Below, in pieces: positions 1 to 53,615 of a DNA stretch of 56,042 nt. Source of the DNA: Arthrobacter sp. SDTb3-6 (GTDB taxonomy: Bacteria > Actinomycetota > Actinomycetes > Actinomycetales > Micrococcaceae); contig NZ_JAAMFN010000031.1 of NCBI RefSeq assembly GCF_013376095.1, positions 1-56,042 of the forward strand, written 5' to 3'. The notes under the pieces were generated by a model. That model was not told the DNA's origin. It worked only from the letters and a program-made list of their open reading frames with translations, and did not search any database. Numbering within the stretch: the first letter of the stretch is position 1; the number at the start of each line of letters is the position of its first letter. The position numbers were made by a program, and so were the translations under genes.

Positions 1-10
1 ACCGGGGATC

Positions 11-30
11 TCATAAGTTTTTGCTTATGA
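11..30. promoter_or_regulatory. inverted repeat TCATAAG-N6-CTTATGA
   Basis: A perfect 7-bp inverted repeat with a 6-base spacer lies about 100 bp upstream of the first RraA-family gene. Its size and position suit a dimeric repressor or activator site for the plus-strand RraA/MFS/RraA operon. The cognate regulator is not visible in the window, and the sequence upstream is cut off. Confidence 0.4.
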
Positions 31-79
31 AAACAGTGAAAACGGATCTTGGACGCGCGCCCGTCACGGAGTTCACGAT

Positions 80-122
80 GTTCCTATGACAAAGCCCGGG
101 ATGGCCCCGGTCACATAGGAAC
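80..122 (+). promoter_or_regulatory. leader hairpin covering the ribosome binding site
   Basis: GTTCCTATG (80-88) pairs perfectly with CATAGGAAC (114-122). Inside it CCGGG (96-100) can pair with CCCGG (106-110) around a 5-base loop. The 3' arm contains the AGGA that would serve as Shine-Dalgarno for the ATG at 130, so the folded leader would hide the ribosome binding site. Whether it acts at RNA level or as a DNA operator is not decidable from sequence. Confidence 0.45.
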
Positions 123-129
123 GGAAATA

Positions 130-816
130 ATGCACGAACTCCAGCAAGAACGCACCGACCAGGAACTTTTCGACGAGTACGGAAAATTAAGCACCGCCGC
201 CGTGTCGGACGCCCTCGATGCCCTGCGTCTTCCCGGCAGCGCGGCGGGCCTCGGTGCTGTCGTCGACTGCCGCCGCCTGATCGGCCGGGCATTTACGGTC
301 CGCTACGTACCCGCAGCACTCGAGCCGGGAAGTGTCGGTGACTACATTGACGAGGTGCCGGCAGGGGCCGTTGTCGTCATCGACAACGCCGCACGCACCG
401 ATTGCACGGTATGGGGAGGCATCCTGACCGAAGTCGCATCCCGCCGGGCCCTGGCCGGAACTGTCATCAACGGCGTGTGCCGTGACGTCGCTACCAGCCG
501 AGAGCTTGACTACCCGCTCTTTACGCGAGGACGGTTTATGCGCACCGGCAAGGACCGGGTGGAAGTGCCGGAAACGGGTGGTCCCGTCTCGCTGGGGGAC
601 GTGCGCGTCCTGCCGGGAGACCTGCTGATCGGCGACGACGACGGCGTGGTGGTGGTCCCGCGTTCCCGAGAAGCCGAGGTTCTCGAGGTCGCCCAGCGTT
701 TGCAGGCCGCCGAGGACCGGATCGTCGACGCCGTGCGTGGCGGCGCATCGCTGGAAGAAGCGCGCCGCGCCAACGGCTACCACCAGCTGCAGCGCGCGGG
801 CTACCTGACCAACTGA
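130..816 (+). CDS. RraA-family protein (HMG-aldolase-like), copy A
   Basis: This 228-residue protein has the RraA/4-hydroxy-4-methyl-2-oxoglutarate aldolase fold, a family of divalent-metal lyases that split or decarboxylate 4-hydroxy-2-oxo dicarboxylates. The N-terminal VSDALDALRLPG, the WGGILTE stretch near residue 95 and the Arg118-Asp119 pair in INGVCRD are recognisable. In canonical members the last motif reads DG(A/G)VRD, so the Asp four residues before the Arg is Asn here. It resembles copy D (7864-8529) much more than copy B, sharing INGVCRD, RTGKDRV and a C-terminal Tyr-His-x-Leu-Gln. The ATG at 130 is preferred over the upstream frame start at 49 because the family N-terminus begins there and AGGA lies 8-9 bases upstream. 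It leads an operon with an importer and a second RraA protein. The substrate is unknown; RNase E inhibition is unlikely in this setting. Confidence 0.85.
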   Translation: MHELQQERTDQELFDEYGKLSTAAVSDALDALRLPGSAAGLGAVVDCRRLIGRAFTVRYVPAALEPGSVGDYIDEVPAGAVVVIDNAARTDCTVWGGILTEVASRRALAGTVINGVCRDVATSRELDYPLFTRGRFMRTGKDRVEVPETGGPVSLGDVRVLPGDLLIGDDDGVVVVPRSREAEVLEVAQRLQAAEDRIVDAVRGGASLEEARRANGYHQLQRAGYLTN

Positions 817-896
817 GCCATTCGACTTCTGTCCCACCGATTCCTGGCAGAGCCGCTCGGGAACGGACGCTGAACTACCGATTCAAGGAGGAATCC

Positions 897-2258
897 GTGC
901 AGCACACAATTCTTGAGAGAACTACGATCAAGCACCTGACCTTGCGCCTGGTCCCCTTTCTCTTTTTGCTCCTATTAGTCAATTACCTCGACCGGGTCAA
1001 CATCGGTTTCGCCGCGTTGCACATGAACGCCGATCTCGGACTGAGCGCAACAGCCTTCGGCTTCGGCGCAAGCGTCTTCTTCATCGGCTACGCCCTGTTT
1101 GAAGTCCCCAGCAACATCATCTTGCAACGTGTCGGCGCACGCATCTGGCTGGCCCGGATCATGATCAGTTGGGGCATTATCTCCGGCGCGATGGCATTTG
1201 TGCAGAGTGAGCAGTGGTTCATCATCCTACGATTCCTGCTCGGCGTGGCCGAGGGCGGATTCATGCCCGGCATCATCTTCTACCTCTCCGCCTGGTTTCC
1301 CCTCGCGCACCGTTCACGGGCCAACTCCGGCGTCGTGGCCGCCACGGCCGTGGCCTCAGTCGTCGGTGCCCCGTTGTCAGGGTTCCTCCTCACCTCGCCG
1401 CCGCAGCTCTTCGGGCTCGTCGGTTGGCAATGGATGTTCCTGCTTGAGGCGGCACCCGCGGTCGTCCTCGGGATTGTGCTCCTTTTCGTTCTCCCGGAAT
1501 CGCCTGCACGGGCCCGATGGCTTGCCTCTGACCAGCGCGAATGGCTGGTCTCGACGCTAAAGGCCGAAGATGACGCCAATCCTGCAGACGACCACCTTTC
1601 GCTCTGGAAGGTCGCCCGCCTGCCGCGGGTGTGGGTGCTCGCGGCACTTTTTACCTGCCTCCTCACGGCCCTCTACGGTGTTTTGCTCTGGCTGCCCCAG
1701 ATCGTTCACTCGCTGGGCAAGCTCACTGACCTTCAAATCGGTTTCCTTTCCGCGATCCCGTTCCTGTGCGGCGCTGCGGCCATGTTGTTGATTGCCCGGC
1801 ACTCCGACCGGACGGGGGAACGCCTCAGGCATCTTGCCGTTCCCCTGGCTGTGGGCGGAGCCAGCCTGCTGGCCAGCGCCTACAGCCCCAACCCGGTCGT
1901 GGCCTTCATTTTCCTGACCATTGCAGCCGGCGGCATTTGGGGCGGGCTCGGCGTCTTCTGGACCCTGGCGGGAGAATTCCTGGCCGGTGCTGCGCGGGCA
2001 AAGGCCATCGCCCTCATCAACACCTTGGCCCAAATGGGCGGGCTCATTGGCCCTTGGATGACCGGGGCTCTCAAGGATGCCACGGGGGGATTCGCCGTCC
2101 CCCTGACATTACTTGCCGTTGCCTCGTTCCTCGCCGCCGCGATCGCACTGCTGATGAACCGACTTCCGAAGACTTCATTGCGCCCCCCCATGGTGCCCGC
2201 GAAGGCATACTCCCCGACCACTAATTCCGCCTCTTCCCAGAAGGAGCCCACGGCATGA
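897..2258 (+). CDS. MFS transporter, anion:cation symporter (ACS) family
   Basis: This 453-residue integral membrane protein has about 12 hydrophobic segments. The opening NYLDRVNIGFAALHMN, the stretch around FEVPSNIILQRVGARIW and the RFLLGVAEGGFMPG motif are typical of the ACS group (tartrate, phthalate, hexuronate and 4-hydroxyphenylacetate importers). The GTG start at 897 has a strong AAGGAGG upstream at 885-891. The stop overlaps the start of the next RraA gene by 4 bases (ATGA), so the two are translationally coupled. Sandwiched between two RraA-family genes, it probably imports the organic acid on which they act, or a precursor. The substrate cannot be named from sequence. Confidence 0.9.
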   Translation: MQHTILERTTIKHLTLRLVPFLFLLLLVNYLDRVNIGFAALHMNADLGLSATAFGFGASVFFIGYALFEVPSNIILQRVGARIWLARIMISWGIISGAMAFVQSEQWFIILRFLLGVAEGGFMPGIIFYLSAWFPLAHRSRANSGVVAATAVASVVGAPLSGFLLTSPPQLFGLVGWQWMFLLEAAPAVVLGIVLLFVLPESPARARWLASDQREWLVSTLKAEDDANPADDHLSLWKVARLPRVWVLAALFTCLLTALYGVLLWLPQIVHSLGKLTDLQIGFLSAIPFLCGAAAMLLIARHSDRTGERLRHLAVPLAVGGASLLASAYSPNPVVAFIFLTIAAGGIWGGLGVFWTLAGEFLAGAARAKAIALINTLAQMGGLIGPWMTGALKDATGGFAVPLTLLAVASFLAAAIALLMNRLPKTSLRPPMVPAKAYSPTTNSASSQKEPTA

Positions 2259-2893
2259 GCATCATCACCACCACCACCACCGGCATCAACATCTTTGACC
2301 GACTCGCCGAGTTTGGCGCCGCCACGGTCTACGAGGCAAACGGCCAGCGCGACGCCGTTGACCCGGCCATCAAGCCGTTGGACCCCCGCTCGCGCATTGC
2401 CGGTCGCGCCGTGACCGTGGAACTGGAGCCTGGCGACAACTGGTTCATTCATCTCGCACTCCTCGAAGCCGGCGAAGGCGACATTCTCGTCGTCGACGCA
2501 AAGGGCTACACGGAGGCCGGGCCTTGGGGCGACGTGCTGACCCTGGCCGCCCAGGAACGCGGACTCGCAGGGCTGGTCATAGACGGCGCCGTCCGTGACA
2601 GCCAGGACATCATCACTGCCGGATTTCCTGTTTTCACCCGGGGCGTCTGCATACGCAAGACCACCAAGGTCCAACAGGGGCGGATCAACATCCCGGTTAC
2701 TGTCGGCGGCGTCCTGATCAACCCCGGCGACGTATTGGTCGGCGACGCCGATGGACTGGTCCGAATCCATGTAGAAGACCTGGCCACTGCCCTTGCCTCT
2801 TCGGAGGCACGGCTGGCCAAGGAGGACGCAATGCGCGATGCCATCCGTGCCGGTGGGACGACCCTGGATCTGTTGGGACTGCCCCGCCCCTGA
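2255..2893 (+). CDS. RraA-family protein (HMG-aldolase-like), copy B
   Basis: This 212-residue RraA-fold protein carries the canonical active-site string IDGAVRDSQDI (Asp110, Arg114, Asp115) and a WGD at 91-93. It is therefore a better candidate for a true 4-hydroxy-4-methyl-2-oxoglutarate or 4-carboxy-4-hydroxy-2-oxoadipate aldolase than copy A. A run of threonines (residues 5-9) precedes the fold and looks like an unstructured tail. Its ATG overlaps the MFS stop. It is closest to copy C (7277-7867). In HMG aldolase, trimer active sites form at subunit interfaces, so copies A and B made from one mRNA could mix; this is inference. Confidence 0.88.
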   Translation: MSIITTTTTGINIFDRLAEFGAATVYEANGQRDAVDPAIKPLDPRSRIAGRAVTVELEPGDNWFIHLALLEAGEGDILVVDAKGYTEAGPWGDVLTLAAQERGLAGLVIDGAVRDSQDIITAGFPVFTRGVCIRKTTKVQQGRINIPVTVGGVLINPGDVLVGDADGLVRIHVEDLATALASSEARLAKEDAMRDAIRAGGTTLDLLGLPRP

Positions 2894-3466
2894 GCCGATA
2901 AGGTTCATTGTCGGGACACGGGTAATCCCAGGATTCCGGCGGTGACATCATCTCGGGAGCCATATGGACAGCACTATGCCGATGCCGGCATGGTGCTGTC
3001 CAGTGGACTGACGTGGATCCCGGCAACATAATGATTGCGTGGTTGAGATGGCGGCTGGCCATTCTATCCGTCGTGATGCGGAGGTGTTGGTGCAAACGGG
3101 ACGACTACTGAACAAGGTCCGGACGACGTCTGAGTGCTGGTGAGTCAACACCCGATCGAAGGAGCGCGGCGCCATGCGGTTGAAATCGCCGCACGAGAGG
3201 CCGGATGTGGTTTCCGGCTCTGGCGAATCAGGACCGCCCGCTCCAGCAACGGCGAGGACCAACACGGGCACCATGTCGGGTGATCGATGGCGACACATCG
3301 GCCGATTTCTCATCGAGTGGCAAGACCTGTCGAGTGGCCAAGATGTGTGCTGCGGCCGATACCTCGGTGGACATTGGCGAATCACGAGGAAGCGGCGGGC
3401 CAGCGTGTGGTTCCTTGGGCCCCAGCACGGTATTCCTGTGGCTTGTCCTGCGATGAGCAGAGGGCA
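2894..3466. other. 573-bp stretch without a recognisable gene
   Basis: The 3' ends of the RraA copy B gene and the minus-strand permease face each other across this stretch. The short open frames in it show no family signature and no good ribosome binding site. I see no clear terminator hairpin with a T-tract. It may be decayed coding sequence, but I cannot assign it. Confidence 0.5.
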
Positions 3467-5089
3467 TCACCGGTGGTTTCGCGGTCCAAGCTCGTGCGGC
3501 TCAGTGGGGTCCCAAGCTATTTCCATTGTTCCGCGATTCGCTTCGGCACTATCGATTCCGGGTCGGCGAGCGATAACGGGAAACGCGCCCGTATGGCCCT
3601 CTCGTTTTAAGGCCGCGGCGTGGATGTTGTCTCGGGCTGCATACCATCCGCCGATCAGCAGGGGAATGAGGATCGTCAGGGAGCCGAGGACCCACCGTCC
3701 GGTTTCGGAGAACCCCATGGAGATGAGGACGAAGACCAGGAAGGCCAAGGTCAGATAGGCGGTAAAGGGGGCCCCGAAAAGCCTGAAAGCGGGACGGGCG
3801 AGCTGGCCTGCTCGCGCCATTCGGTGCAGTTTCATCTGGCACAAGACGATGGTCGCCCAGCACCCGATGATGCCAAGGGCAGAAACTTCAAGGACAATCT
3901 CAAATGCCTGTGAAGGTACGAGCGCGTTCAGCCCAACGCCGAGCAAGGCGATGATGGCGGTGAAAAGAATGCCGCCATAGGGCACGCCGCTGTGGCTCAT
4001 TTTGGCGGCGAACGCGGGCGCCGAGCGGTTTATGGCTAGTGAGCGCAGAATTCTTCCGGTTGAATACAATCCGGCGTTGAGGCTGGAGAGGGCTGCTGTC
4101 AGGACGACGAAGTTCATTATTGAAGCTGCCATGATCCCGGCGTGGGGATTCTCCAGGTGCGAGAAGAACGTCACAAAAGGTGATTCGCCTTCTTTATAGG
4201 CAGTGAATGGCAGCAGCAGCGAGAGCAGTAAGACGGACCCAACGTAGAAAACGGCAATGCGCAATACGACTGTGTTGATGGCTTTAGGCATTATCTTTTC
4301 TGGGTTCTCGGTTTCACCCGCAGCCGTTCCGACCAGCTCAATGCCCGCGTACGCGAAGATGACGCCGCTAATGGCCAACAACGGGGCTATGCCGCCTGAG
4401 GGTAGGAAGCCGCCGTGGTCGGCGAGCACGTTGAACCCAGTCTGGCCCAAATCCGTGCTTGCACGCGTGAGCAGAAATGCGATGCCGATGATGAGGAACG
4501 CGACTAGGGCAAGGATTTTGATCAGCGCAAACCAAAATTCCATCTCACCAAAAAGCTTGACGGAAACTAGATTCAGGGAAAGCACCACGATGAGCGCTGC
4601 AAGGGCAACGGCCCATTGGGGCACTGCTTGAAGGGACGGCCAGTACGGGGCCCAAAACTTGACATAGAGCGCTGCCGCGGTGACGTCCACTATCGAGGTC
4701 ATGGCCCAGTTGAGGAAATATAGCCAACCAGTCGCGTAGGCCATCTTCTCGCCATAAAATTCCCGTGCATAGGAGACGAAGGAGCCGGAGGATGGGCGGT
4801 GGAGTACGAGCTCGCCCAGGGCGCGAAGGATGAGGAATCCGAAGAACCCGCACACTGCGTAGACCAGAACCAGCGCTGGTCCGCTGCTATTCAGGCGGGC
4901 TCCGGCACCCATGAACAATCCGGTGCCTATGGCCCCGCCGATGGCGATCATCTGTATTTGGCGCGGCTTGAGCGTCTTGTGGTATCCCTTGTCCTCGCTG
5001 GCGAAGTCGCGTACTGCCGATGCTGCGTCACCGGTGAGTTCGCGTTCGTTTTCCAATTCGTCGGCGCGGTCACGCTGGGGTCTTTGCAT
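3467..5089 (-). CDS. amino acid permease, APC superfamily (AnsP/CycA-like)
   Basis: This 540-residue permease has about 12 membrane segments. The signature [20 protein letters not shown] directly follows a soluble N-terminus of about 45 residues and is the substrate-site glycine motif of the AAT family (asparagine, D-serine/alanine and GABA permeases). The ATG at 5089 is chosen because the frame upstream has no membrane character and CGGAGA sits just before it. The C-terminal ~50 residues are hydrophilic and longer than in typical AnsP. It is the last gene of the minus-strand operon starting at 9194, after a 52-bp gap from the hydrolase. With an aminotransferase in the same operon, an amino acid (perhaps an acidic or amide type) is the likely cargo. 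Confidence 0.88.
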
Positions 5090-5141
5090 AGAGGTTCTCC
5101 GAAAGGTTGGGCCTGCACTTCTTTGTGGGCTGGTGTGTGGC

Positions 5142-5975
5142 TTATGGTGTGGCTGGCAGCGGTGGCCAAGGTGCGGCTGCCGTGGTTGCTTGGCGGTGGA
5201 ACGCTGCGATTCGGGTCCACATCTCCGGGGCGTTGGAATACATCGGGAAATGGCCGCTGCGTGGAATTTCCGCCAGCTGCACTCCGCGGGCAGCAAGGTG
5301 GGGAAGGTAGGTCAGCGAGCTGTTTTGCTCGCCATACATGAACATGCGGGGGAGTGGCAGCGCCAGAAACTTCGCCATCAGCGCGGCATTGTCAGAGAGT
5401 TCGACCATTGACTCGAAGATGCCCCTGACTGCTGCGGCGCGGACCTTGTACCGGACACTGGTGGCGTACAACGGACTTGAAAAGTGAGGGGAGGCCCAAT
5501 TGCGCGTGATGAAGTCCTCGAGGAATACATCTGGATCTTCGTGGGGGTGGCGGAAGATTTGCCGGCTGAGGAAGCAGTCCTCAGGGGCAAGGTTTCCTTC
5601 GATGTCGGTGAAGCTGGCGACGCGGCCGGGTTCCTGATCGGCGAGAATGAGGGCGGTCAGACCGCCCATGGAGTGGCCTACCAGGTGAAGCCGTTCGATG
5701 CCTTGGTGTGACAGGACAGCCGTGGCGGTTTTGACTAGGAACGGGATAGAAATCTTTGTCAGCTCGCTACACCAGGACTCGCCGCAGCCGGGTGCGTCGT
5801 AGGCGAAGAAGGGCCGGCCAGTGAACTCCGGGTTCTGGGTGATGTCGGCATAGTCTTCCTTGGTCGAGCCGAATCCGTGGAGGAAGACGATGGGAACTCC
5901 CTCCCCATTGCGGCTGATGCAGGACAGGCGTACGTCGGTTCCGTTGACGCTGAGGGGGATCTCGTGCCTGGTCAT
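5142..5975 (-). CDS. alpha/beta hydrolase
   Basis: This protein of about 277 residues has the alpha/beta-hydrolase fold. FLHGFGS near residue 32 is the oxyanion region, VGHSMGG carries the nucleophilic Ser (residue 102 from the ATG), and [11 protein letters not shown] near the C-terminus supplies the catalytic His. The Asp is probably in the stretch before it. A TTG at 5993 with AAAGG upstream is an alternative start that adds six residues. It lies between the aminotransferase (131-bp gap from the ATG) and the permease in a same-strand operon, so it probably hydrolyses an ester, amide or C-C bond in the substrate of that pathway. Specificity is not predictable. Confidence 0.82.
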
Positions 5976-6105
5976 GGTGTCTTCAGGTTGCAATGTGTGC
6001 CTTTCGCCGTACCGTCAGGCCGTGACGGTTGGTGTGGAGGATGACGCCCATCTTGTGGGCGTTCGTTCGGAGGGCCTGTTCTGTTTGGTGCCGGTGTCTG
6101 GCCGT

Positions 6106-7263
6106 TTAGGGAAAGCATCGGACTGTGGCGACGAAGCGGCGGAGTCCTTCTTCGAGGCCCGAGACATCAGTGGCGAAGGATATCCGGATGTGTCCCTCGC
6201 CGGAGGGCCCAAATTCGCTGCCGGACCTCACGAGGACCCCGGCCCGGACAAAACGGGCTGCCATTTCGTCCGAGGAGAGTTGAGAGGTGATGCGCGGGAA
6301 GGCGTAGAACGCGCCTTGCGGGGTAAACATGGAAATTTCGGGCAGGCCACCCAGGCGTTCCACAACGAGGTCGCGCCTTTTCCGGTATGACCGGGCTGCA
6401 GCCTGGAGCTGGGTTTGGGTTGTTTGCAGGGCGGTGAATCCCGCGTCCTGGACGAAGGTATTCAGTGGGCCGTTGATGGTTCGGTGGATGAGATTGATCT
6501 TCTCAGCCAAAGGCCCATCGGCGACCACGTAGCCTAGCCGCCACCCCGTCATCGCGTAGCTTTTGGATAACGTATTACAGTAGATGACCTGCGACGAAAC
6601 ACCGGCCAAATCCAATGCGGAGACGAACTCGAGCCCGTCGAAGATGATGTCCCCATAGGCTTCGTCGGAAAGCAGCAGCAGATCGGGGTTGGCTGCCAGG
6701 ATGGTACCGACTCGGTGGATGTCGGCTGCCGGGTAGACGCGGCCGGTGGGGTTGCCGGGGTTGCAGAGCATGATCATGCGTGCTGATGGCGCTTCTTTGC
6801 GGACGGCGTCAAGGTCCAGAGAGCCGTCCGGATTGTTGGCCATCCACACCACTTCCGCTCCAACCAGGGCGGCCTGGTCCGCGTAGAGCGAATAGGTGGG
6901 TTCGGGGATCAGGACGCGGTCACCCGGCCTAATGAGGGCCAGCATCGAGGCTGCGAGTCCTGCGCTGCCGCCATGGGTCAGGACGACTTCGCATGGCGCG
7001 GTGGGCCGGGCGTGTTCGGTGGAAATCTTACGGGCGATGGCCTCCCGCAGTTCAGGCACGCCGGTCATGGGGGAGTATCGGGTTCGTCCAGCCGTTAGGG
7101 ACTGGATGGCGGCGTCGACTATTGCGCTGGGGGTGCCGGCGTCGGGCTCTCCCATGGCGAGGGAGATGGCGCCCGGAGCCGTGGTGCCCAGGCTCGCGGG
7201 GCGGCGGCTGGACGCCGCGATGCGCTCGGCGGCCCCCGGTAGCCGGGTGGTTGTGTTTTTCAA
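6106..7263 (-). CDS. PLP-dependent aminotransferase, class I/II
   Basis: This 385-residue fold-type I aminotransferase has CNPGNPTG at about 167-174, SDEAY at 199-203 and TLSKSYAMTGWRLGY with the PLP Lys at 234. FTPQGAFYAFP and an Arg near the C-terminus (HIRISFA) that would bind the substrate carboxylate are also visible. The open frame runs further upstream into the RraA gene, but a TTG at 7263 with GGAAGAAG six bases before it gives the family-like N-terminus and a 13-base gap after the RraA stop. It follows three RraA-family genes and precedes a hydrolase and an amino acid permease. The simplest role is conversion of the imported amino acid to a 2-oxo acid that an RraA-type lyase could cleave. 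Confidence 0.87.
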   Translation of the reverse strand: MKNTTTRLPGAAERIAASSRRPASLGTTAPGAISLAMGEPDAGTPSAIVDAAIQSLTAGRTRYSPMTGVPELREAIARKISTEHARPTAPCEVVLTHGGSAGLAASMLALIRPGDRVLIPEPTYSLYADQAALVGAEVVWMANNPDGSLDLDAVRKEAPSARMIMLCNPGNPTGRVYPAADIHRVGTILAANPDLLLLSDEAYGDIIFDGLEFVSALDLAGVSSQVIYCNTLSKSYAMTGWRLGYVVADGPLAEKINLIHRTINGPLNTFVQDAGFTALQTTQTQLQAAARSYRKRRDLVVERLGGLPEISMFTPQGAFYAFPRITSQLSSDEMAARFVRAGVLVRSGSEFGPSGEGHIRISFATDVSGLEEGLRRFVATVRCFP

Positions 7264-7276
7264 GGTCTTCTTCCGG

Positions 7277-7867
7277 TCAGAGTGAGTAGATTTCCAAGGT
7301 GGATTTGCCGTTACTGATTTCGCCCAGGATGCGCTGCTCGTCGGCCACTCGTTGGTCCGCCCTGTCCAGGACTGCTTTGGCGGCGGCATGGGGCAGGACG
7401 ACGACGCCGTCGGAGTCTCCGACCACGAGATCGCCTGTACGGACGGTTACCCCGCCTACGCGTACTGGGGAGGTGAAGTCGCCGGGGTAGTCCTTGGCGG
7501 TTCCGACGACGGAGACGCTGCGGGAGAAGACGGGAAAGTCCATCCGGCTCATTTCGTCGACGTCCCGGACGCCGCCGTCGATGACGAGGCCGGCGATGCC
7601 GTGGTGTTGTGCGGCGGCGGCAAGGATTTCACCCCAGTGGCCGTGTTCGGCACCCTGCATGTCGGCCACGAGCACGCTTCCCACCGGTGCCTGCAGGACC
7701 GCGTGGTGGAGGGCCAGGTTGTCGCCACCGACGCCGCGGACGGTGAAGGCCGGGCCGGCGACCTTGGCCCCGGGCCATGCGGGCCGCAGCCCGGGATCGC
7801 AGGCGCAGGGCAATTTGGATGCTTCATAGAGCGTGGCTGAGGAGTGTCCCCGGGCTGCGTTGTTCAC
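7277..7867 (-). CDS. RraA-family protein (HMG-aldolase-like), copy C
   Basis: This 196-residue RraA-fold protein has the canonical IDGGVRDVDEM motif (Asp97, Arg101, Asp102) and WGEIL at 78-82. It is the copy in this operon most like characterised HMG/CHA aldolases and closest to copy B. Two in-frame GTG codons exist. The second (7867) is preferred because GAGGA lies just upstream and it overlaps the previous stop by 4 bases (GTGA). It ends with a short IYSL tail and lacks the C-terminal helix seen in copies A and D. Confidence 0.86.
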   Translation of the reverse strand: MNNAARGHSSATLYEASKLPCACDPGLRPAWPGAKVAGPAFTVRGVGGDNLALHHAVLQAPVGSVLVADMQGAEHGHWGEILAAAAQHHGIAGLVIDGGVRDVDEMSRMDFPVFSRSVSVVGTAKDYPGDFTSPVRVGGVTVRTGDLVVGDSDGVVVLPHAAAKAVLDRADQRVADEQRILGEISNGKSTLEIYSL

Positions 7868-8529
7868 TTGTTCCTCCACTGAAGGTCGTGGTAGCCGAGG
7901 TCCCGGCGGGCCTGGACGAGGCTGGTGCCAGCCTTGACGGAGGCTACGATCCTGGCTTCGGTGTCTTCGATCCCTTCGGCAATGTCGGCGATCTTCCCTG
8001 CGTAGGCCTGGGGCACGGCCAGGGCGCCGTCGGCGTCAGCGCAGATGATGTCCGAGGGGGCGATGCGCACACCGTTGATGGCCAATTCGGTCTGGACTGC
8101 GATGAGCTGGACGCGGTCCTTGCCGGTGCGCATGAACTGCCCGCGGCTGAAGAGCGGGTAGTTCTGCTCAAGCGAGGTGGAAATGTCGCGGCAGACGCCG
8201 TTGATGACGGTTCCGCCGATGCCGCGCCCGGCAGCAATCTCGGTCATGATGCCGCCCCAGACCGTCACGTCGGTTCGCCCTTCGTTGTCGATGACAATCA
8301 CGGCACCGGCCGGGACGTCGTCGAGGAAATCGCCGACGCTGCCACGTGTTTCGCCGGCCGGTGCGTACTGCACGGTGAAGGCGGGTCCGGTAGTTCGGAA
8401 GCCGTAGGTCAAGGGTGAAAGCCCGTGCAGGGTGCCGTGGAGGCCGAGGGAGTCCATCGCGTCGGAGATGGAAGCCGTGGGCAGGGCTGAAAGGCGTTTG
8501 GCGGGGCTTGTATCGGTGGTGGTGTTCAT
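7864..8529 (-). CDS. RraA-family protein (HMG-aldolase-like), copy D
   Basis: This 221-residue RraA-fold protein shares INGVCRD (Asn110, Arg114, Asp115), the FMRTGKDRV stretch and a C-terminal Tyr-His-Asp-Leu-Gln-Trp with copy A at the other end of the window. The two are clearly related as a subfamily in which the usual DG(A/G)VRD is altered. The open frame extends far upstream over copy E, but the ATG at 8529 is right: it starts the family N-terminus and its A is the last base of the preceding TGA. The stop overlaps the next start by 4 bases. It could be a divergent aldolase, a decarboxylase, or a partner subunit in a mixed trimer. Confidence 0.86.
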   Translation of the reverse strand: MNTTTDTSPAKRLSALPTASISDAMDSLGLHGTLHGLSPLTYGFRTTGPAFTVQYAPAGETRGSVGDFLDDVPAGAVIVIDNEGRTDVTVWGGIMTEIAAGRGIGGTVINGVCRDISTSLEQNYPLFSRGQFMRTGKDRVQLIAVQTELAINGVRIAPSDIICADADGALAVPQAYAGKIADIAEGIEDTEARIVASVKAGTSLVQARRDLGYHDLQWRNK

Positions 8530-9194
8530 CAGTGTTCCTCCGTGGTTCCAGCCAGGCGCGCGTCGCGCATGGCTTCGTGAAGTGCGACGCCGGCCTTCAG
8601 CTCGGCGGCGATGGCCCGTTCCCGACGGGCCACGCCTTGGGCCCGTTCCAAGACGGTGTCTACGTGGTTCCTTGGCACAACCACGACGCCGGTCTCGTCC
8701 GCCAGGACCAGGTCGCCCGGGGTGACGGTCACCGCGCCGAGCTGAACTGGTTCGCCGGTTGAACGCTGCTGCAGCCGGCCGCGGGCCGTGGCGGGGATCT
8801 GCCCCTTGGCGAAGACGGGAAAGTTGATTTCGCGTGCTTCGTGCACGTCCCGGCAGGCGCCGTCGGCCACAACGCCGCGAACGCCGTTCAGCGAGGCACC
8901 AAGACTGAGCAACCCGCCCCAACAGGAGACATCGGTGCGGCCGTCGTTGGCTACGACGATGACGTTTGTGCCATTGGCCGCGTCGACGGCGCTCGCTGCG
9001 ATGTGTGCCCCGGACGGACCGGGGGAGTAAGGCTCGAGTTGGACGGTTACGGCGAATCCGACGATTTTGGGGGTTCCCCAGACCGGGACGAAGCCTGCCT
9101 GTCCCGGGGGGAGCCCGAGCGCGTCGAGGGCGTCTGACACTGCCGCCGAGTCCAGGGTTGCGTAATGCTCCAGGAGTGTTGTTTGCGAAGTCAT
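8529..9194 (-). CDS. RraA-family protein (HMG-aldolase-like), copy E
   Basis: First gene of the minus-strand operon, 221 residues. SAAVSDALDALGLPPGQAGF near the N-terminus, CWGGLLSLGA at about 91-100 and ADGACRDVHEA (Asp111, Arg115, Asp116) mark the RraA fold. The motif is intermediate: it keeps the Asp of the canonical group but has the Cys-Arg-Asp of copies A and D. Its stop TGA shares one base with the copy D ATG. Transcription runs away from the LysR gene at 9274, which probably controls it. Confidence 0.86.
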   Translation of the reverse strand: MTSQTTLLEHYATLDSAAVSDALDALGLPPGQAGFVPVWGTPKIVGFAVTVQLEPYSPGPSGAHIAASAVDAANGTNVIVVANDGRTDVSCWGGLLSLGASLNGVRGVVADGACRDVHEAREINFPVFAKGQIPATARGRLQQRSTGEPVQLGAVTVTPGDLVLADETGVVVVPRNHVDTVLERAQGVARRERAIAAELKAGVALHEAMRDARLAGTTEEH

Positions 9195-9218
9195 ACTTCC
9201 AGTACACAGCCCCTAACC

Positions 9219-9248
9219 GATATAGTGAAGGTCTAGTTCCCTATAGTT
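9219..9248. promoter_or_regulatory. candidate LysR operator between the divergent genes
   Basis: The 79-bp space between the RraA copy E start (9194) and the LysR start (9274) contains two direct copies of TATAGT, at 9221 and 9242, exactly 21 bp (two helical turns) apart. LysR proteins usually bind such repeated half-sites in shared divergent promoters. Confidence 0.4.
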
Positions 9249-9273
9249 GGAAGAGGAAAGGCGACTCAATCGA

Positions 9274-10170
9274 ATGGTCGAAGTGCGGCAAGCACGGTAT
9301 TTCATTTCCGTAGCCGAGGAATTGCATTTTGGGCGGGCGGCGGAACGGCTTAACATGTCCCAGCCTCCGCTGAGCCAGGCAATCCTCCAGCTCGAGAGGC
9401 AACTGGGAACCAGCCTGCTGACGCGTTCGAGCCGGTCCGTGTTGTTGACGGACGCGGGGAAATTGTTCCTTAATGAATGCCGGCTGCTGGTGCAGGCTTC
9501 GGAACGTGCCTCGGAAGTTGCAGCACGCGCCACGTCTGGCATGGCGGGAACGCTGCGGATAGGCTCTGTCACCTCCGCGTTCGACAGGATGCTCCCGGAG
9601 GTTCTGGAACGCTTCCGGGGCGAGTGGCCGGACGTTGAACTCGAGGTCTCGGAAATCGACACACACCACGGCCGAGACCGGCTACTGCGGAGAGAGCTGG
9701 ATGTCGCAATTATTCGCCAGTCCGGATCCGCTAGAGGATTGAAGTCGTTACCTTGGCGCCGGGACCGATTCGTCCTGGCGCTCCCCGCCTCACATGCGTT
9801 GGCGCGCGGGGGAGGGCCTGTTGACCTGGTCAGGTTTAAGGATGAAAGTTGGGTGTGGCTGCCTCGAGCGATTTCTCCCGATTACCACGACGAGATGGTC
9901 GCGGCTTGTCGGCAGGCGGGCTTCAGCCCCCTGGCCCAGCACTTTGCAAACTCAATCCATTCACAATTGGCCATGGTGAGCTGCGGGTTGGGAGTTACCC
10001 TGGCGCCCAACTCGTCCATCGAATCCGCCCATGGCGGCTTCGTTGGACGGGAACTCTCTGCCCGTGTGGACCTCGTGGAGCTGTCCCTCGTCAGCCGGGA
10101 GGGCGGGCCGGAACCCATCGCGGAGCATTTTATCGACTGCGCACAGCAAGCCGCCGGTGCCCGTAAGTGA
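9274..10170 (+). CDS. LysR-family transcriptional regulator
   Basis: This 298-residue protein begins with a winged helix-turn-helix (VEVRQARYFISVAEELHFG to about residue 60; recognition region MSQPPLSQAILQLERQ), followed by the periplasmic-binding-protein-like effector domain. The ATG at 9274 is chosen over a TTG at 9247 because LysR proteins start just before the RQxRYF motif. GAGGAAAGG lies about 13 bases upstream, which is long. It is divergent from the operon of three RraA genes, aminotransferase, hydrolase and permease, and is the obvious candidate activator. The inducer is unknown. Confidence 0.9.
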   Translation: MVEVRQARYFISVAEELHFGRAAERLNMSQPPLSQAILQLERQLGTSLLTRSSRSVLLTDAGKLFLNECRLLVQASERASEVAARATSGMAGTLRIGSVTSAFDRMLPEVLERFRGEWPDVELEVSEIDTHHGRDRLLRRELDVAIIRQSGSARGLKSLPWRRDRFVLALPASHALARGGGPVDLVRFKDESWVWLPRAISPDYHDEMVAACRQAGFSPLAQHFANSIHSQLAMVSCGLGVTLAPNSSIESAHGGFVGRELSARVDLVELSLVSREGGPEPIAEHFIDCAQQAAGARK

Positions 10171-10305
10171 TCCTGGGTCGTCTGCGGCTAAATCGTACGG
10201 GCGCTACCGGTTAGAGAGTTCGAGGCCAAGGCGCCGAAGAATTCCAGCATGAAAGGCCATCGCCACTCCCAACTGCCGGGCCGAGTCCTGTTTGAAAGTC
10301 CTGGC

Positions 10306-10341
10306 GCCGGTCCGGCATGCCGGGGTGGCAGGCGGACCGGC
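10306..10341. terminator. bidirectional hairpin between convergent genes
   Basis: GCCGGTCCG (10306-10314) is perfectly complementary to CGGACCGGC (10333-10341), and the 18-base loop can itself form a short GGCATGCC stem. It lies between the 3' ends of the LysR gene and the nitrilase gene. No strong T-tract follows. Confidence 0.5.
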
Positions 10342-10352
10342 ACCCAATCAAG

Positions 10353-11180
10353 CTAGACGGGCACGACGATGCCAAGCTTTCGCGTGGCCAGGACTGGGAC
10401 GATCTGTCGGGCCTGTTCGACGGTCTCGGTATCGACCGTTACAACGAAGGCGCCGACTTTGTCGTCAAGCTCTTCGATGATTTGCCCTAGGGGATTGATG
10501 GCCATGCTGTGCCCGATGCCGAAACGCGGACCCGCGGGTTCGTCGATTCCGACCGTTGACGCGTCGGCTTGGTCGCAGCTGACAATCCAGGTGGTTGAGT
10601 CCAGCGCGCGGGCGCGGGAAAGCAGAGTCCACGCGTCGAGCTTTCCTTCTCCGGCACCCCAATGGGTCGGTACAAGGACTGCCGTCGCCCCGAGGTCCGC
10701 GTAGGCGCGGAAGAGTTCCGGAAAACGGATGTCGTAACAGGTTGCGACTCCGAATTTCATGCCGTCCACCTCGAAGGTAAAAGGAACATTGCCGGCCTGG
10801 ACAGCGGCGGATTCGGAGAAGCCGTAGGCCTCGTAGAGGTGGATCTTGTTGTAACCACTGTGCAGTCCGGGGCCGGTGACCAGAATGGTGTTCATGACAC
10901 GGCCATTATCGGCAGGCTGGAACATGCCGACCAGGACATAAACATCGAGTTCGTTGGCAAGTTTCCTTATGGCCGTCGCCCAGGGGCCGTCGAGCGATTC
11001 TGCGTGGGGTGTCGAGTCGACGCCAAATCGCACGTGGGTGGCTTCGGGAAGCACGACAATCCTTGCCCCGGTCGCTGCACCGGACCTGATGGCTTCCAAT
11101 GCAATGGTCAGGTTGACCTGTGGATCGCCCGTGCTGGCAATTTGCTGGACGGAGATGCTGACTTTCGTATTGATCGACAT
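10353..11180 (-). CDS. carbon-nitrogen hydrolase (nitrilase superfamily amidase)
   Basis: This 275-residue enzyme carries the full Glu-Lys-Cys triad: Glu46 (VVLPEATH), Lys112 (YNKIHLYEAYG) and Cys148 (VATCYDIRFPEL). YDIRFPEL and the length place it among omega-amidase/deaminated-glutathione amidase-like members rather than aromatic nitrilases. The ATG at 11180 starts the beta strand that opens this fold; the frame upstream runs into the promoter. It is divergent from a GntR/FCD regulator with a 17-bp dyad between them. It probably releases ammonia from an amide imported by the neighbouring MHS transporter. Confidence 0.9.
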   Translation of the reverse strand: MSINTKVSISVQQIASTGDPQVNLTIALEAIRSGAATGARIVVLPEATHVRFGVDSTPHAESLDGPWATAIRKLANELDVYVLVGMFQPADNGRVMNTILVTGPGLHSGYNKIHLYEAYGFSESAAVQAGNVPFTFEVDGMKFGVATCYDIRFPELFRAYADLGATAVLVPTHWGAGEGKLDAWTLLSRARALDSTTWIVSCDQADASTVGIDEPAGPRFGIGHSMAINPLGQIIEELDDKVGAFVVTVDTETVEQARQIVPVLATRKLGIVVPV

Positions 11181-11198
11181 GTGATAGCCAAACTTTCT

Positions 11199-11215
11199 GT
11201 ATGCGTTTCGTATAC
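11199..11215. promoter_or_regulatory. candidate FCD-regulator operator, site 1
   Basis: GTATGCGTTTCGTATAC is a dyad with 7-bp arms, one mismatch and a 3-base spacer. It lies in the 42-bp gap between the divergent nitrilase and GntR genes. The pattern GTATG-N6-GTATAC recurs at 13257-13273. Confidence 0.6.
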
Positions 11216-11222
11216 TTATGGA

Positions 11223-11861
11223 ATGAGGAAGAACCCTAAATCTAATCGGGCGCGTGCCTATGAGTTCATCTGCGAAAATATCCTTCCGGTCCCTTCCTTC
11301 CACGGCCAGTTCCTGGCCGAGGAGGACGTCGCCGAGATGATCGAGGGAATCTCGCGGACTCCGGTTCGGGAAGCCTTCCTGTTGCTAGGTGCTGAGGGAT
11401 TGATCCAACTGGTACCTCGCCATGGTGCTTTTGTCCCTCCCATTACGCGGCAGGAAGTCCATGAAGTCTTGGAGTTTCGCCGGCTAATGGAAATTCAGGC
11501 CATGCATTTCGTCATGTCCGAGGACAGGGCCCCGACAGTGGAGATGCGAAGCATCCTGGATCGCCAGATTGCAAGTGCGTCGGAAGGTCTTGAACGGGAC
11601 TTCATCGAGTTGGACACCGAATTCCATCTGGCCTTGGTCAGCTCCCAAAACAACTCCTTGATTACAAAGGCATATTCCGATCTCAAAGCCCGCAATGTTC
11701 GTATCGGTATGAGTGCCCTCGGGGCAACCCATGTGCGACAGGATGGTGTCCTGTCCGAGCACGAGGCCATCGTTCATGCAATGCAATCGGGTGACGTTGC
11801 CCTCGCAACTCAGGCTCTTATGGATCACTTAACTTCCACGGAGGCGGTGCTTATGAAATAG
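11223..11861 (+). CDS. GntR-family (FCD/FadR subfamily) transcriptional regulator
   Basis: This 212-residue protein has an N-terminal winged helix-turn-helix (about 5-70; GISRTPVREAFLLLGAEGLI is the recognition region) and an FCD effector domain. In the FCD part, EFRRLMEIQAMHF, DTEFHLALVSSQNN and LSEHEAIVHAMQSGDV carry the Asp and His residues that bind a metal in this family. The ATG at 11223 is preferred although the frame is open far upstream, because the DNA-binding domain starts here. Its last 11 bases overlap the 3' end of the convergent MHS gene. It probably represses the nitrilase, MHS and DUF2848 genes. Confidence 0.9.
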   Translation: MRKNPKSNRARAYEFICENILPVPSFHGQFLAEEDVAEMIEGISRTPVREAFLLLGAEGLIQLVPRHGAFVPPITRQEVHEVLEFRRLMEIQAMHFVMSEDRAPTVEMRSILDRQIASASEGLERDFIELDTEFHLALVSSQNNSLITKAYSDLKARNVRIGMSALGATHVRQDGVLSEHEAIVHAMQSGDVALATQALMDHLTSTEAVLMK

Positions 11862-13200
11862 CGGCGGTCGGTCCTGACGCCATTGCGTGTGATCCGAAGT
11901 CATCGGTGATTTGTTCATCGGGGTCAGGGTTGCGGGCCATCCAGACGCCAATGACAGTGATGACCGAGACAATGATGATGTAGATCGCCATGGGGACCCA
12001 GCTGCCGTATGTGCCCAGCAAGAACGTGAACAGCAATGGGGCGATGGCTCCACCGAAGACACCGCCCAGCGTGTAGGCCAGGGAACTGCCCGCATACCGC
12101 AAGCGCGGGCTGAACTGTTCCGTAACAAGGGCCGCCTGCGGCCCATACATCAGCGAGTTGCAAAGCAAGCCTGCGATCACTGCGGCGACCACGCCCGTGA
12201 ATCCGATTCCCATCAAGGGGAAGAAAATGAAGGGCCATGCGATGGAAAGCGCGGCACCGATGCCGACCACGACGCGACGATTCATGCGGTCCGAAAGGTA
12301 TCCGGCGAGCGGGACCATGAACGTCTGCAAGGCGGAACCAATAACGACGGCCAAAAGAGCCTGGCCGGAATTAAGCCCGTGTTCCCGAGTCGCATAGACA
12401 AGCACAAAGACGGTCGAGAGCGCGTACATGACGTCTGGGGCGATGCGAGACATCGTGGCAGCGCATAGGCCTCTGAGTTCTTTCGTAAAAACGTCCTTCA
12501 GTGGGGAGCGGGCGACAAGTCCCTGTGCCTTGATCTCTTCAAAGACCGGCGTTTCCTCAATCTTGACGCGGATGACAAGCCCAACTCCGACCAGAATGGC
12601 CGAGAGCAGAAACGCCAAGCGCCAGCCCCAGGCCAGGAAGCTGTCGTGGCTCATGCTCACGGTGAGAAGTGCTAACACGCCGTTGGCCATCAGGTTACCC
12701 AGTGGTGGACCGATCTGGGCCGCGGATCCGAAGAATCCTTTCCGCTTTGGGTCACCGTGTTCGGCTGAAATAAGAACCGCGCCCGCCCACTCGCCGCCAA
12801 CACCGACGCCCTGGCACAGCCGGAGAAAGACTAAAAGCAGGGGTGCCATTAAGCCGATGGAGGCATAGGGCGGAATGAGCCCGACGCCGAAGGTGGCTAC
12901 ACCAATCAGGATCAGCGTCCAAACTAGGACCTTCTTGCGACCTACAAGGTCGCCGAGCCGGCCAAAAAAGAAGCCGCCGAGTGGCCGGGCAACGTACCCG
13001 ACAGCGTATGTGCCGAACGCCGCCAACGTTCCCGCTAGCGGATCTGCAGAATGAAAAAAGACATGTCCAAACACCAGGGCGGAGGCGGCCGAATAGACCG
13101 CGAAGTCGTACCATTCAAGACTTGTTCCGGTCAAAGCGACGATGAATGCGCGTGCCCCCTGCTTCTTTCGCGGAGGCGCTGCGGTGCGGTCTGTATCCAT
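11851..13200 (-). CDS. MFS transporter, metabolite:H+ symporter (MHS) family
   Basis: This 449-residue, 12-segment membrane protein has a start (TGTSLEWYDFAVYSAAS) and RPLGGFFFGRLGDLVGRKK loop diagnostic of the MHS family (shikimate, citrate, proline/betaine and alpha-ketoglutarate porters). The LRLCQGVGVGGEWAGAV segment near residue 130 is also characteristic. The ATG at 13200 is preceded by AAGGAGTTACTTC. It is divergent from the DUF2848 gene across 137 bp containing the second copy of the 17-bp motif. The cargo is probably an organic acid or zwitterion used by the nitrilase and DUF2848 enzymes. Confidence 0.92.
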   Translation of the reverse strand: MDTDRTAAPPRKKQGARAFIVALTGTSLEWYDFAVYSAASALVFGHVFFHSADPLAGTLAAFGTYAVGYVARPLGGFFFGRLGDLVGRKKVLVWTLILIGVATFGVGLIPPYASIGLMAPLLLVFLRLCQGVGVGGEWAGAVLISAEHGDPKRKGFFGSAAQIGPPLGNLMANGVLALLTVSMSHDSFLAWGWRLAFLLSAILVGVGLVIRVKIEETPVFEEIKAQGLVARSPLKDVFTKELRGLCAATMSRIAPDVMYALSTVFVLVYATREHGLNSGQALLAVVIGSALQTFMVPLAGYLSDRMNRRVVVGIGAALSIAWPFIFFPLMGIGFTGVVAAVIAGLLCNSLMYGPQAALVTEQFSPRLRYAGSSLAYTLGGVFGGAIAPLLFTFLLGTYGSWVPMAIYIIIVSVITVIGVWMARNPDPDEQITDDFGSHAMASGPTAAIS

Positions 13201-13256
13201 GAAGTAACTCCTTTGTCGGCTTCCAATGATTTTACGAACAGCCCATGGATGCTTAT

Positions 13257-13273
13257 GTATGGTCTGTGTATAC
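13257..13273. promoter_or_regulatory. candidate FCD-regulator operator, site 2
   Basis: GTATGGTCTGTGTATAC repeats the GTATG-N6-GTATAC pattern of the nitrilase/GntR promoter inside the divergent MHS/DUF2848 promoter. The outer GTAT/ATAC arms are symmetric; the inner bases are not. Sharing the motif links the four genes in one regulon. Confidence 0.55.
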
Positions 13274-13337
13274 TCAGGCTATGCCGTGATCGTAATCACG
13301 GCAAGACCAACCCAAAAAAATGTCGAAGGAGACAATC

Positions 13338-14021
13338 ATGACGCTGCGTTTTTCACTTCCCGAGGCTGAAGTCGTCGAGGTTGAAGTCAAGAACCTCTTG
13401 AACGGCGGCTATGCCGGCCGCCATCAGGACCATGTCAGGGCCCACATTGAAGAGCTCGCCGCGCTTGGTGTCCCTGGGCCGACTGTCGTGCCCACCATGT
13501 ATCCGGTGGCCAGCTATCTTGCCCAGCAGGCCACAACAGTCCCAGTGCAGCATGGACGAACCAGCGGCGAGGTTGAATGGGCCATCATTGTCGATGACCG
13601 GAACGACCTCCTTTTGACGTTGGCCTGCGACCACACTGACCGGGAGTTGGAGGTTCACGGAATTGCCTGGTCCAAGAACGCGTCGCCCGATGTCCTCGCA
13701 TCCGAGGCGTGGCGACTCTCGGAAGTCGAAGACCACATCGACCAGCTCACCCTGACCGCGTGGGTGACAAACGACGGCCGCGAAGAAGAAATCCAGACGG
13801 CTAGCCTCGCCGACCTGCTCCCGCCATCGCATTGGGTCGTAGTCCTCAAGGAACGGAACCTGCTGCAGCCCGGCACGGTCTTGCTTTCGGGCACTGTCAA
13901 CATGCGGGAGGGCGTCAATCAATTTGCTAACGCCTGGCGTGCCGAACTGCGTGATCCGGTGTTGGAGCGCTCAATTGCGCTGGCCTATGACGTTGTGCCC
14001 ATGGCGGAACCAATCGGCTAA
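13338..14021 (+). CDS. DUF2848 family protein
   Basis: This 227-residue protein matches DUF2848 by its overall pattern: an early GGYAGR(H/D)xxxVxxHIEELAALGV region, VPTMYP, and a C-terminal VVLKERNLLQPGTVLLSGTV. The last string resembles the fumarylacetoacetate-hydrolase superfamily, to which DUF2848 is usually compared; the reaction is not established. The ATG at 13338 is preferred to the one at 13320 because AAGGAG (13326-13331) lies six bases before it. Divergent from an MHS importer and probably co-regulated with a nitrilase, it may act on a 2-oxo or acylpyruvate-like acid released downstream. Confidence 0.8.
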   Translation: MTLRFSLPEAEVVEVEVKNLLNGGYAGRHQDHVRAHIEELAALGVPGPTVVPTMYPVASYLAQQATTVPVQHGRTSGEVEWAIIVDDRNDLLLTLACDHTDRELEVHGIAWSKNASPDVLASEAWRLSEVEDHIDQLTLTAWVTNDGREEEIQTASLADLLPPSHWVVVLKERNLLQPGTVLLSGTVNMREGVNQFANAWRAELRDPVLERSIALAYDVVPMAEPIG

Positions 14022-27160: not shown

Positions 27161-27161
27161 C

Positions 27162-28946: not shown

Positions 28947-28976
28947 GGATGGCTCCTTGAAGGTATCGAGGGAGGG

Positions 28977-53547: not shown

Positions 53548-53553
53548 CAATCG

Positions 53554-53598
53554 TAACCTCCTGGCCGATGAGCGCATGCGGCCTCGGCCAGGAGGTTA
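53554..53598. terminator. 15-bp perfect hairpin between convergent racemase-like genes
   Basis: TAACCTCCTGGCCGA (53554-53568) and TCGGCCAGGAGGTTA (53584-53598) pair without mismatch around a 15-base loop. Placed between two convergent stops, it should terminate both strands. Confidence 0.85.
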
Positions 53599-53615
53599 TC
53601 TGACGGGCGCCAAGG

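Follow-up and report, generated by a model that had tools for sequence, protein, structure and literature searches.

The stretch of DNA analyzed here, contig NZ_JAAMFN010000031.1 of Arthrobacter sp. SDTb3-6 (the window, 56,042 nucleotides), raises the question of why a single locus should hold five genes of the RraA fold, named A to E, three of which (E, D, and C) overlap head to tail on the minus strand. The initial annotation placed these genes correctly: all five open reading frames are present and match PF03737 (RraA-like) over their full length, at 115.8–157.3 bits (Pfam cut-off 24.5; E-values 2.7e-33 to 4.3e-46). E, D, and C are members of three old subfamilies, termed T1, T2, and T3, and form a conserved cassette. 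With somewhat less than even confidence, we propose that this cassette turns 4-methylene-2-oxoglutarate, the keto form of 4-carboxy-2-hydroxypenta-2,4-dienoate (CHPD), or the enol CHPD itself, into two molecules of pyruvate. The reactions, their substrates, and the division of work between T1 and T2 are all predictions drawn from sequence.

A one-genome-per-species collection was scanned with an alignment of A to E as the query, which yielded at least 595 stretches; of these, the 80 loci with the best matches to E were retained. This set was chosen by similarity to E alone, flanks were fetched up to 8 kb, and neighboring genes were assigned by gene picking and marker hidden Markov models (HMMs). 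The record titles of the 80 loci, many of which are metagenome bins, span nine phyla and include Actinomycetota, alpha-, beta-, and gammaproteobacteria, Bacillota, Acidobacteria, Chloroflexi, Nitrospiraceae, “Deltaproteobacteria”/Desulfobacteraceae, Synergistaceae, and Neomarinimicrobiota.

The initial annotation had suggested a family tree with HMG/CHA aldolases. The tree built here comprises 251 RraA-fold proteins taken from the 80 loci, from additional loci, and from three solved structures (one locus is present twice, as L085 and L122), and it places the HMG/CHA aldolase 3noj with C and B, the solved structure 3k4i with D and A, and E in a clade apart. These clades are T3 (64 members, support 0.97), T2 (89 members, support 0.84), and T1 (85 members, support 0.97), respectively; T1 and T2 are sister clades with a joint support of 1.0. 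The dense amplification within one locus described earlier is not supported, and a recent local origin is ruled out: the three types are old clades whose record titles span nine phyla, and A is an additional T2 and B an additional T3. Two other earlier claims fared better. Each operon does mix types (A and B are T2 and T3; E-D-C is T1-T2-T3), and these types are held together in the records of other phyla. The active-site strings are as first described (NGVCRD in A and D, DGACRD in E, DGAVRD in B, and DGGVRD in C), and the types they were used to define are real by the tree, but other differences between them say more than the letters directly before R-D. A T1-T2-T3 cassette is defined as one member of each clade, adjacent and on one strand; E, D, and C are such a set.

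The types are found together with great regularity. By the tree, T1 and T2 co-occur in 78 of the 80 loci, the exceptions being L054 and, on a contig of 6.8 kb, L098; marker HMMs gave 77, because the T1 frame of L049 was counted under another marker. All three types are present in 60 of 80 loci by marker HMM and in 52 by stricter tree typing, and at least six T3-like proteins of anaerobes lie outside the T3 clade. The spacing between T1 and T2, from inferred starts, is −60 to +120 bases in 59 of the 76 loci with both genes on the plus strand. Among 395 other Actinomycetota genomes, T2 (E ≤ 1e-30) occurs in five, with T3 adjoining in all five and T1 in four; the remaining genome (G382) has a T1-like match some 69 kb from T2. 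Mirror trees were compared for 62 loci that have T1, T2, and T3 together and a T3 score above 240, a threshold that excludes the lower-scoring T3 proteins of the anaerobe kind. The correlations, which include shared species history, were 0.87 (T1, T2), 0.88 (T1, T3), and 0.83 (T2, T3), against a maximum of 0.18 in 999 permutations.

Ratios of nonsynonymous to synonymous substitution rates (dN/dS; Nei-Gojobori method, three Arthrobacter loci, first 10 codons omitted) are 0.07–0.12 for E, 0.11–0.16 for D, and 0.09–0.11 for C. These three genes are under purifying selection and are not dead copies. The initial annotation had allowed that the altered copies might be catalytically dead; dead copies are ruled out for E and D by these ratios (A lies outside the test).

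Neighboring genes point to more than one source of substrate. A LigY-type hydrolase marks 27 of the 80 loci and an aminotransferase marks 26; a LigZ-type dioxygenase without LigY is found in five, AcnX and/or PreA-like genes in ten, and a Rieske protein only in two, leaving ten without any marker. LigY-type and aminotransferase markers were found in the same locus in none of the 80. Neighbors of which representatives were identified include a LigB-family extradiol dioxygenase, a Rieske protein with a LigXa-like C-terminus, RidA, an aldehyde dehydrogenase, and an FAD monooxygenase. One representative of the hydrolase is nearest to the solved SYK-6 meta-cleavage hydrolase LigY (6.9e-120, 403 bits, versus 229 bits for the 4-oxalomesaconate hydratase LigJ). 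The copy in a peanut Bradyrhizobium scores 286 bits with LigY versus 212 with LigJ. In the LigY locus of Aminobacter SR38, a gene annotated “amino acid aminotransferase” lies nearby, with no match to the aminotransferase marker. The aminotransferase-type cassette (LysR, T1, T2, T3, aminotransferase, hydrolase, and sometimes a permease) is the kind found in the window, where no LigY or LigZ marker occurs in positions 1–14000 among the matches listed; it is also found in Streptomyces, Burkholderiales, Pseudomonas, and Rhizobium records. LysR is the usual partner of this cassette, and the LysR marker adjoins T1 in many loci. In Arthrobacter sp. cf158 and on a plasmid of Pseudomonas, the cassette has 5-oxoprolinase-type genes next to it.

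Several individual loci add to this picture of contexts. In L051, L052, L053, L069, L071, and L077, mostly anaerobe records, T1/T2 stand beside both aconitase X subunits, a third kind of context. Plasmid pNL1 of Novosphingobium aromaticivorans (L202, 8995–11830) carries a LigY-like gene, RidA, T1, and T2, the last annotated as a diguanylate cyclase. Plasmids of peanut Bradyrhizobium, such as B. guangxiense (L148), carry a dioxygenase, a LigY-like gene, RidA, T1, and T2, with seven RraA-like places each; peanut is rich in 4-methyleneglutamine. Two genes of the aspartate/glutamate-racemase family lie near T1-T2 on a Diaphorobacter plasmid.

A comparison of LigJ-type with LigY-type loci serves as a natural control. 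In 385 alphaproteobacterial genomes, 15 loci of the LigY/LigJ family were divided by HMM score into 12 of LigJ type (287–330) and three of LigY type (464–499). The one LigJ-type member compared with solved structures is nearest to 4-oxalomesaconate hydratase (8e-193); another, L191, has internal stop codons. Within the fetched stretches, T3 accompanies six of the 12 LigJ-type loci and T1/T2 none, whereas T1 and T2 are both present in two of the three LigY-type loci. Among plasmid records, each of the 23 LigY-type rows has a T1 gene (E ≤ 1e-35) no more than about 5 kb from LigY; these rows represent about eight lineages (e.g., seven rows are peanut Bradyrhizobium and six are Aminobacter near-duplicates). 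Among the matches listed, T1 lies within 20 kb in none of 37 weaker LigJ-like plasmid rows, drawn from a set with 58 further records; two of the 37 have a far-off T1. T3 thus accompanies both pathways, and T1/T2 go with the pathway that has no known hydratase.

The LigY step of the DDVA pathway yields CHPD, and the use of CHPD by Sphingobium SYK-6 has been suggested (PMC6874591); the hydration of CHPD in SYK-6 is marked as not identified (“NI”) in the available text of a 2025 paper (PMC12673573). To reach pyruvate, CHPD would need a vinylogous keto-enol shift, the addition of water to give 4-hydroxy-4-methyl-2-oxoglutarate (HMG), and then aldol cleavage. T1 and T2 would together hydrate 4-methylene-2-oxoglutarate or CHPD to HMG, with either one as the tautomerase and the other as the hydratase, possibly acting as a complex; T3 would be the HMG aldolase that splits HMG into two pyruvates. 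For the HMG/CHA aldolase model NF006731 (cut-off 179), B lies above at 180.5, C below at 163.4, and A, D, and E well below at 68–91; all five are below the cut-off of 304.5 for TIGR02798, a second such model. The mechanism of HMG/CHA aldolase is described as passing through a pyruvate enolate (PMC5065237), and all three proposed steps are chemistry on the enol of a 2-oxo acid.

The two main contexts would then differ in how the module is fed. The substrate in the window would be a 4-substituted glutamate or its amide, e.g., 4-methyleneglutamate (a plant amino acid) or 4-methyleneglutamine, imported by the permease and then acted on by the aminotransferase of the operon; elsewhere, lignin biaryls would supply the module through extradiol cleavage and LigY-type hydrolysis. 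Transamination of 4-methyleneglutamate gives the same 4-methylene-2-oxoglutarate, which would explain the aminotransferase in the place of LigY. The asparagine-type permease, the Nit2-like amidase (Nit2 itself we take to be an omega-amidase), and the 5-oxoprolinase-type genes fit a glutamine- or glutamate-like substrate and its lactam.

Residues at the active site separate the types further. R123 and D124 (3noj numbering) are conserved in 238 of 238 typed members. T3 keeps N71, G98, T145, and R195 in 64 of 64 proteins, K147 in 63, and H75 in 62. T2 has glycine at 71 and 75 in 85 of 89, lysine at 147 in 88, and cysteine at 122 in 86. In T1 the position of K147 is arginine in 85 of 85, and N71 and H75 are absent among the six commonest residues listed; R195 is absent from both T1 and T2. 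Two metal motifs, D-X20-R-D and G-X20-R-D-X2-E/D, were reportedly defined by Mazurkewich in 2014. The literature bears out that there are two metal motifs (PMC5065237), and the classes below use the definitions just given. The second motif is found in 56 of 85 T1 proteins and the first in 21; the first is found in 74 of 88 classed T2 proteins, and T3 has E-X20-R-D in 53 of 63 classed. By the same definitions, B has the first motif, E the second, and C a glutamate for the aspartate, and A and D have neither. Neither motif occurs in twelve T2 proteins, A, D, and ten others from Actinomycetota (L040–L046, L125–L127); a thirteenth listed without a motif, L120, merely has a gap at the position. Because ten other actinobacterial proteins share the loss, the alteration in A and D belongs to a lineage and is not peculiar to this genome. 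In these twelve proteins, the missing metal ligands suggest either a metal-free T2 that uses Cys-Arg-Asp or a non-catalytic partner of T1.

Predicted structures agree with the family assignment. AlphaFold2 models of D and E (mean predicted confidence, pLDDT, 92.9 and 93.7) have the RraA fold and are nearest to 3k4i, with template modeling (TM) scores over the query of 0.84–0.88 and 0.83–0.87, respectively. A bolder version of the proposal, which we consider rather doubtful, makes T1, T2, and T3 a mixed tautomerase-hydratase-aldolase machine in which metal-free D would carry out vinylogous keto-enol or hydratase chemistry through its conserved Cys-Arg-Asp; this would be a new role for the RraA fold and a common end of lignin biaryl cleavage and 4-methyleneglutamate-type catabolism.

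A number of observations weigh against the conversion of CHPD or 4-methylene-2-oxoglutarate by the cassette. To our knowledge, there is no hydratase of the RraA fold, and Actinomycetota T2 proteins without metal motifs could presumably not use the standard metal chemistry. The LigY-type locus L178 has no T1/T2 nearby and its genome (G1112) has no T1 match; the pNL1 locus has no LigZ-type marker near its LigY-like, T1, and T2 genes, which implies that the substrates of LigY-like proteins vary. The ten loci with AcnX/PreA-like genes, mostly anaerobe records, suggest no clear substrate, and ten more have no marker. In Burkholderiales, T2 is found in ten of 200 genomes with T1 adjoining in only five; the remaining five yield no better T1 match than the T2 gene itself (one such stretch, L196, stops at a contig end). 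Taken with the Actinomycetota sample, this indicates that T1 is nearly always accompanied by T2 and that T2 is able to stand alone. The shared species history in the mirror-tree correlations counts on the same side. Finally, the 2025 paper proposes that hydration in Paenibacillus is the work of UxuA rather than of an RraA protein (PMC12673573, available text).

The alternative that survives best, although we consider it doubtful, is that E, D, and C, or T1 and T2, would form mixed rings with active sites at the interfaces and act as a hetero-oligomeric aldolase or decarboxylase, metal-poor D serving as a structural or specificity subunit. The close T1-T2 spacing, the overlapping frames in the window, the co-inheritance of the types (T1 lacks a nearby T2 in only two of 80 loci), and the purifying selection on a D that lacks both metal motifs all favor such a partnership, but consecutive reactions on a single substrate also account for the types. 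3k4i, a T2 protein, was crystallized alone as three identical chains; together with the T1-less T2 in five of ten Burkholderiales genomes, this shows that T2, at least, need not be hetero-oligomeric. A pure aldolase role also leaves the absence of T1/T2 from the 12 LigJ-type loci unexplained.

It is unlikely that the cassette encodes three separate homomers, each a class II pyruvate aldolase or oxaloacetate decarboxylase with a substrate of its own, gathered in one operon to widen its range. In favor of this reading, R-D is kept in all five proteins and a metal motif in E and B, and the literature regards the majority of RraA/HMG-aldolase homologues as class II pyruvate aldolases (PMC5065237). 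However, D and A have neither metal motif, and widening of range predicts neither a fixed set of three types with mirrored trees nor the LigJ/LigY contrast. Very improbable is a scheme in which the LigY-like protein of aromatic clusters is itself the hydratase and T1/T2 perform, e.g., decarboxylation or isomerization of an early intermediate: LigY and LigJ are homologous (a comparison by sequence only), yet both copies compared fall closer to the hydrolase, and the LigY-type marker is found in none of the 26 aminotransferase-type loci. That A to E are RraA proper or a degenerate recent amplification has next to no probability, given dN/dS near 0.1 and the age of the subfamilies. RNase E regulation is ruled out, despite the public annotation “RraA family protein” on many members, by scores under the RraA and NOT-MenG cut-offs for all five (38.5–81 versus 136 for NF006875; 35.5–77 versus 123.8 for TIGR01935).

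If the cassette does convert CHPD or 4-methylene-2-oxoglutarate to pyruvate, it would supply specific and widespread gene candidates for the hydration of CHPD, the step of SYK-6 lignin-dimer catabolism marked as not identified (PMC12673573, available text). It would also give the RraA fold a new activity, imply that bacteria have a route for amino acids of the 4-methyleneglutamate type, and correct the annotations demethylmenaquinone methyltransferase, diguanylate cyclase, and RraA. A search of the open-access literature found no description of three RraA paralogues as a unit, nor of bacterial 4-methyleneglutamate breakdown; RraA and CHPD go unmentioned in the available text of a 2026 review of lignin-dimer catabolism (PMC12997858).

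The genes of the two operons and their neighbors are collected in Table 1. On the minus strand, E, D, and C are followed after a 13-base gap by the aminotransferase, the alpha/beta hydrolase, and the amino-acid permease. E and D share a single base (TGATG, 8529). The overlap of D with C depends on where C starts: four bases (GTGA) for the GTG at 7867, and 16 for the start at 7879. The second operon, on the plus strand, begins with A, 130 bases from the contig end, and provides a second T2 and T3 pair in A and B. Its transporter, which overlaps B by four bases (2255–2258), has sub-cut-off matches to D-galactonate and 4-hydroxyphenylacetate transporters. The best solved relatives of the aminotransferase are aspartate and aspartate-prephenate aminotransferases, and those of the amidase are 2w1v (nitrilase homolog 2, 9.4e-28) and yeast YLR351C (6.1e-23).

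Table 1. Genes of the RraA-fold locus in the window and their assignments (MFS, major facilitator superfamily)
Gene	Position	Strand	Assignment	Evidence
A	130..816	+	RraA-fold, type T2; neither metal motif (G-X20-RD-X2-T)	PF03737 8.7e-35; T2 clade
MFS transporter	897..2258	+	organic-acid type; between A and B	PF07690 6e-54
B	2255..2893	+	RraA-fold, type T3, HMG/CHA-aldolase-like; D-X20-R-D present	3noj 6.4e-39; T3 clade
Amino-acid permease	3467..5089	-	asparagine-permease-like; start inferred	PF00324 4e-105; NF011623 592.9 bits, under cut-off 773
Alpha/beta hydrolase	5142..5975	-	recurrent in aminotransferase-type cassettes; start inferred	PF12697 8.3e-18; alpha/beta hydrolase (ABH) marker
Aminotransferase	6106..7263	-	pyridoxal phosphate (PLP) aminotransferase class I/II; start inferred	PF00155 4.3e-63
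C	7277..7879	-	RraA-fold, type T3; Glu at Asp-102 position; start 7879 or 7867	PF03737 1.5e-43; T3 clade with 3noj
D	7864..8529	-	RraA-fold, type T2; neither metal motif	PF03737 2.7e-33; T2 clade with 3k4i
E	8529..9194	-	RraA-fold, type T1; G-X20-R-D-X2-E	PF03737 3.9e-35; T1 clade
LysR regulator	9274..10170	+	divergent from E; start inferred	PF03466 5.2e-43
Amidase	10353..11183	-	nitrilase superfamily, Nit2-like; possible accessory of cassette; start inferred	PF00795 1e-34

The SDTb3-6 genome has nine PF03737 genes, the maximum among 98 genomes; 22 other genomes of the genus have one to seven. The closest relatives of E among the matches listed are in Arthrobacter sp. cf158 (90% identity) and A. 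cavernae (87%). Another contig of the same genome (C74; L141, 2–1057) starts with a second copy of the MFS end and B, 92% identical over 1065 bases; a duplication of the A-MFS-B operon probably broke the assembly here. To the right of the cassette, a DUF2848 protein (13320–14021) lies beside an MFS transporter and the Nit2-like amidase, and a DDE_3 transposase-like gene at 14797–15879 suggests traces of mobile elements. Farther along, a hut (histidine-utilization)-like operon, with provisional gene names based on sequence, lies at 24577–30617 with an adjoining hydrolase of the M20 peptidase family, and a pair of arylmalonate-decarboxylase-type genes (PF17645) occupies opposite strands at 52780–54356.

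Among known systems, HMG/CHA aldolase (LigK/GalC/ProA; 3noj is from Pseudomonas putida F1) resembles C and B in fold and clade. Compared with 3noj, C has glutamate at 102, and T1 and T2 lack R195 and, as far as listed, N71/H75; in LigJ-type loci, T3 stands without T1/T2, unlike in the E-D-C cassette. The uncharacterized Pseudomonas syringae protein PSPTO_3204 (3k4i) is, in both sequence and fold, the solved structure nearest to D and E, and it keeps the D-X20-R-D that A and D have lost. The RNase E regulator RraA has a fold in common with D and E, but A to E are longer (200–228 versus about 160 residues) and belong to catabolic-looking operons. In the DDVA pathway of SYK-6 (LigX, LigZ, LigY, and then CHPD), LigY acts just before CHPD; LigY-type genes accompany the trio in the 27 loci noted above, whereas the trio in the window has an aminotransferase in that place and no LigY/LigZ-type marker. 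The order of steps proposed here is that of the LigU-LigJ-LigK sequence of protocatechuate 4,5-cleavage (tautomerase, hydratase, and aldolase). In that sequence the tautomerase and the hydratase have unrelated folds, whereas in the cassette all three enzymes would be RraA-fold paralogues.

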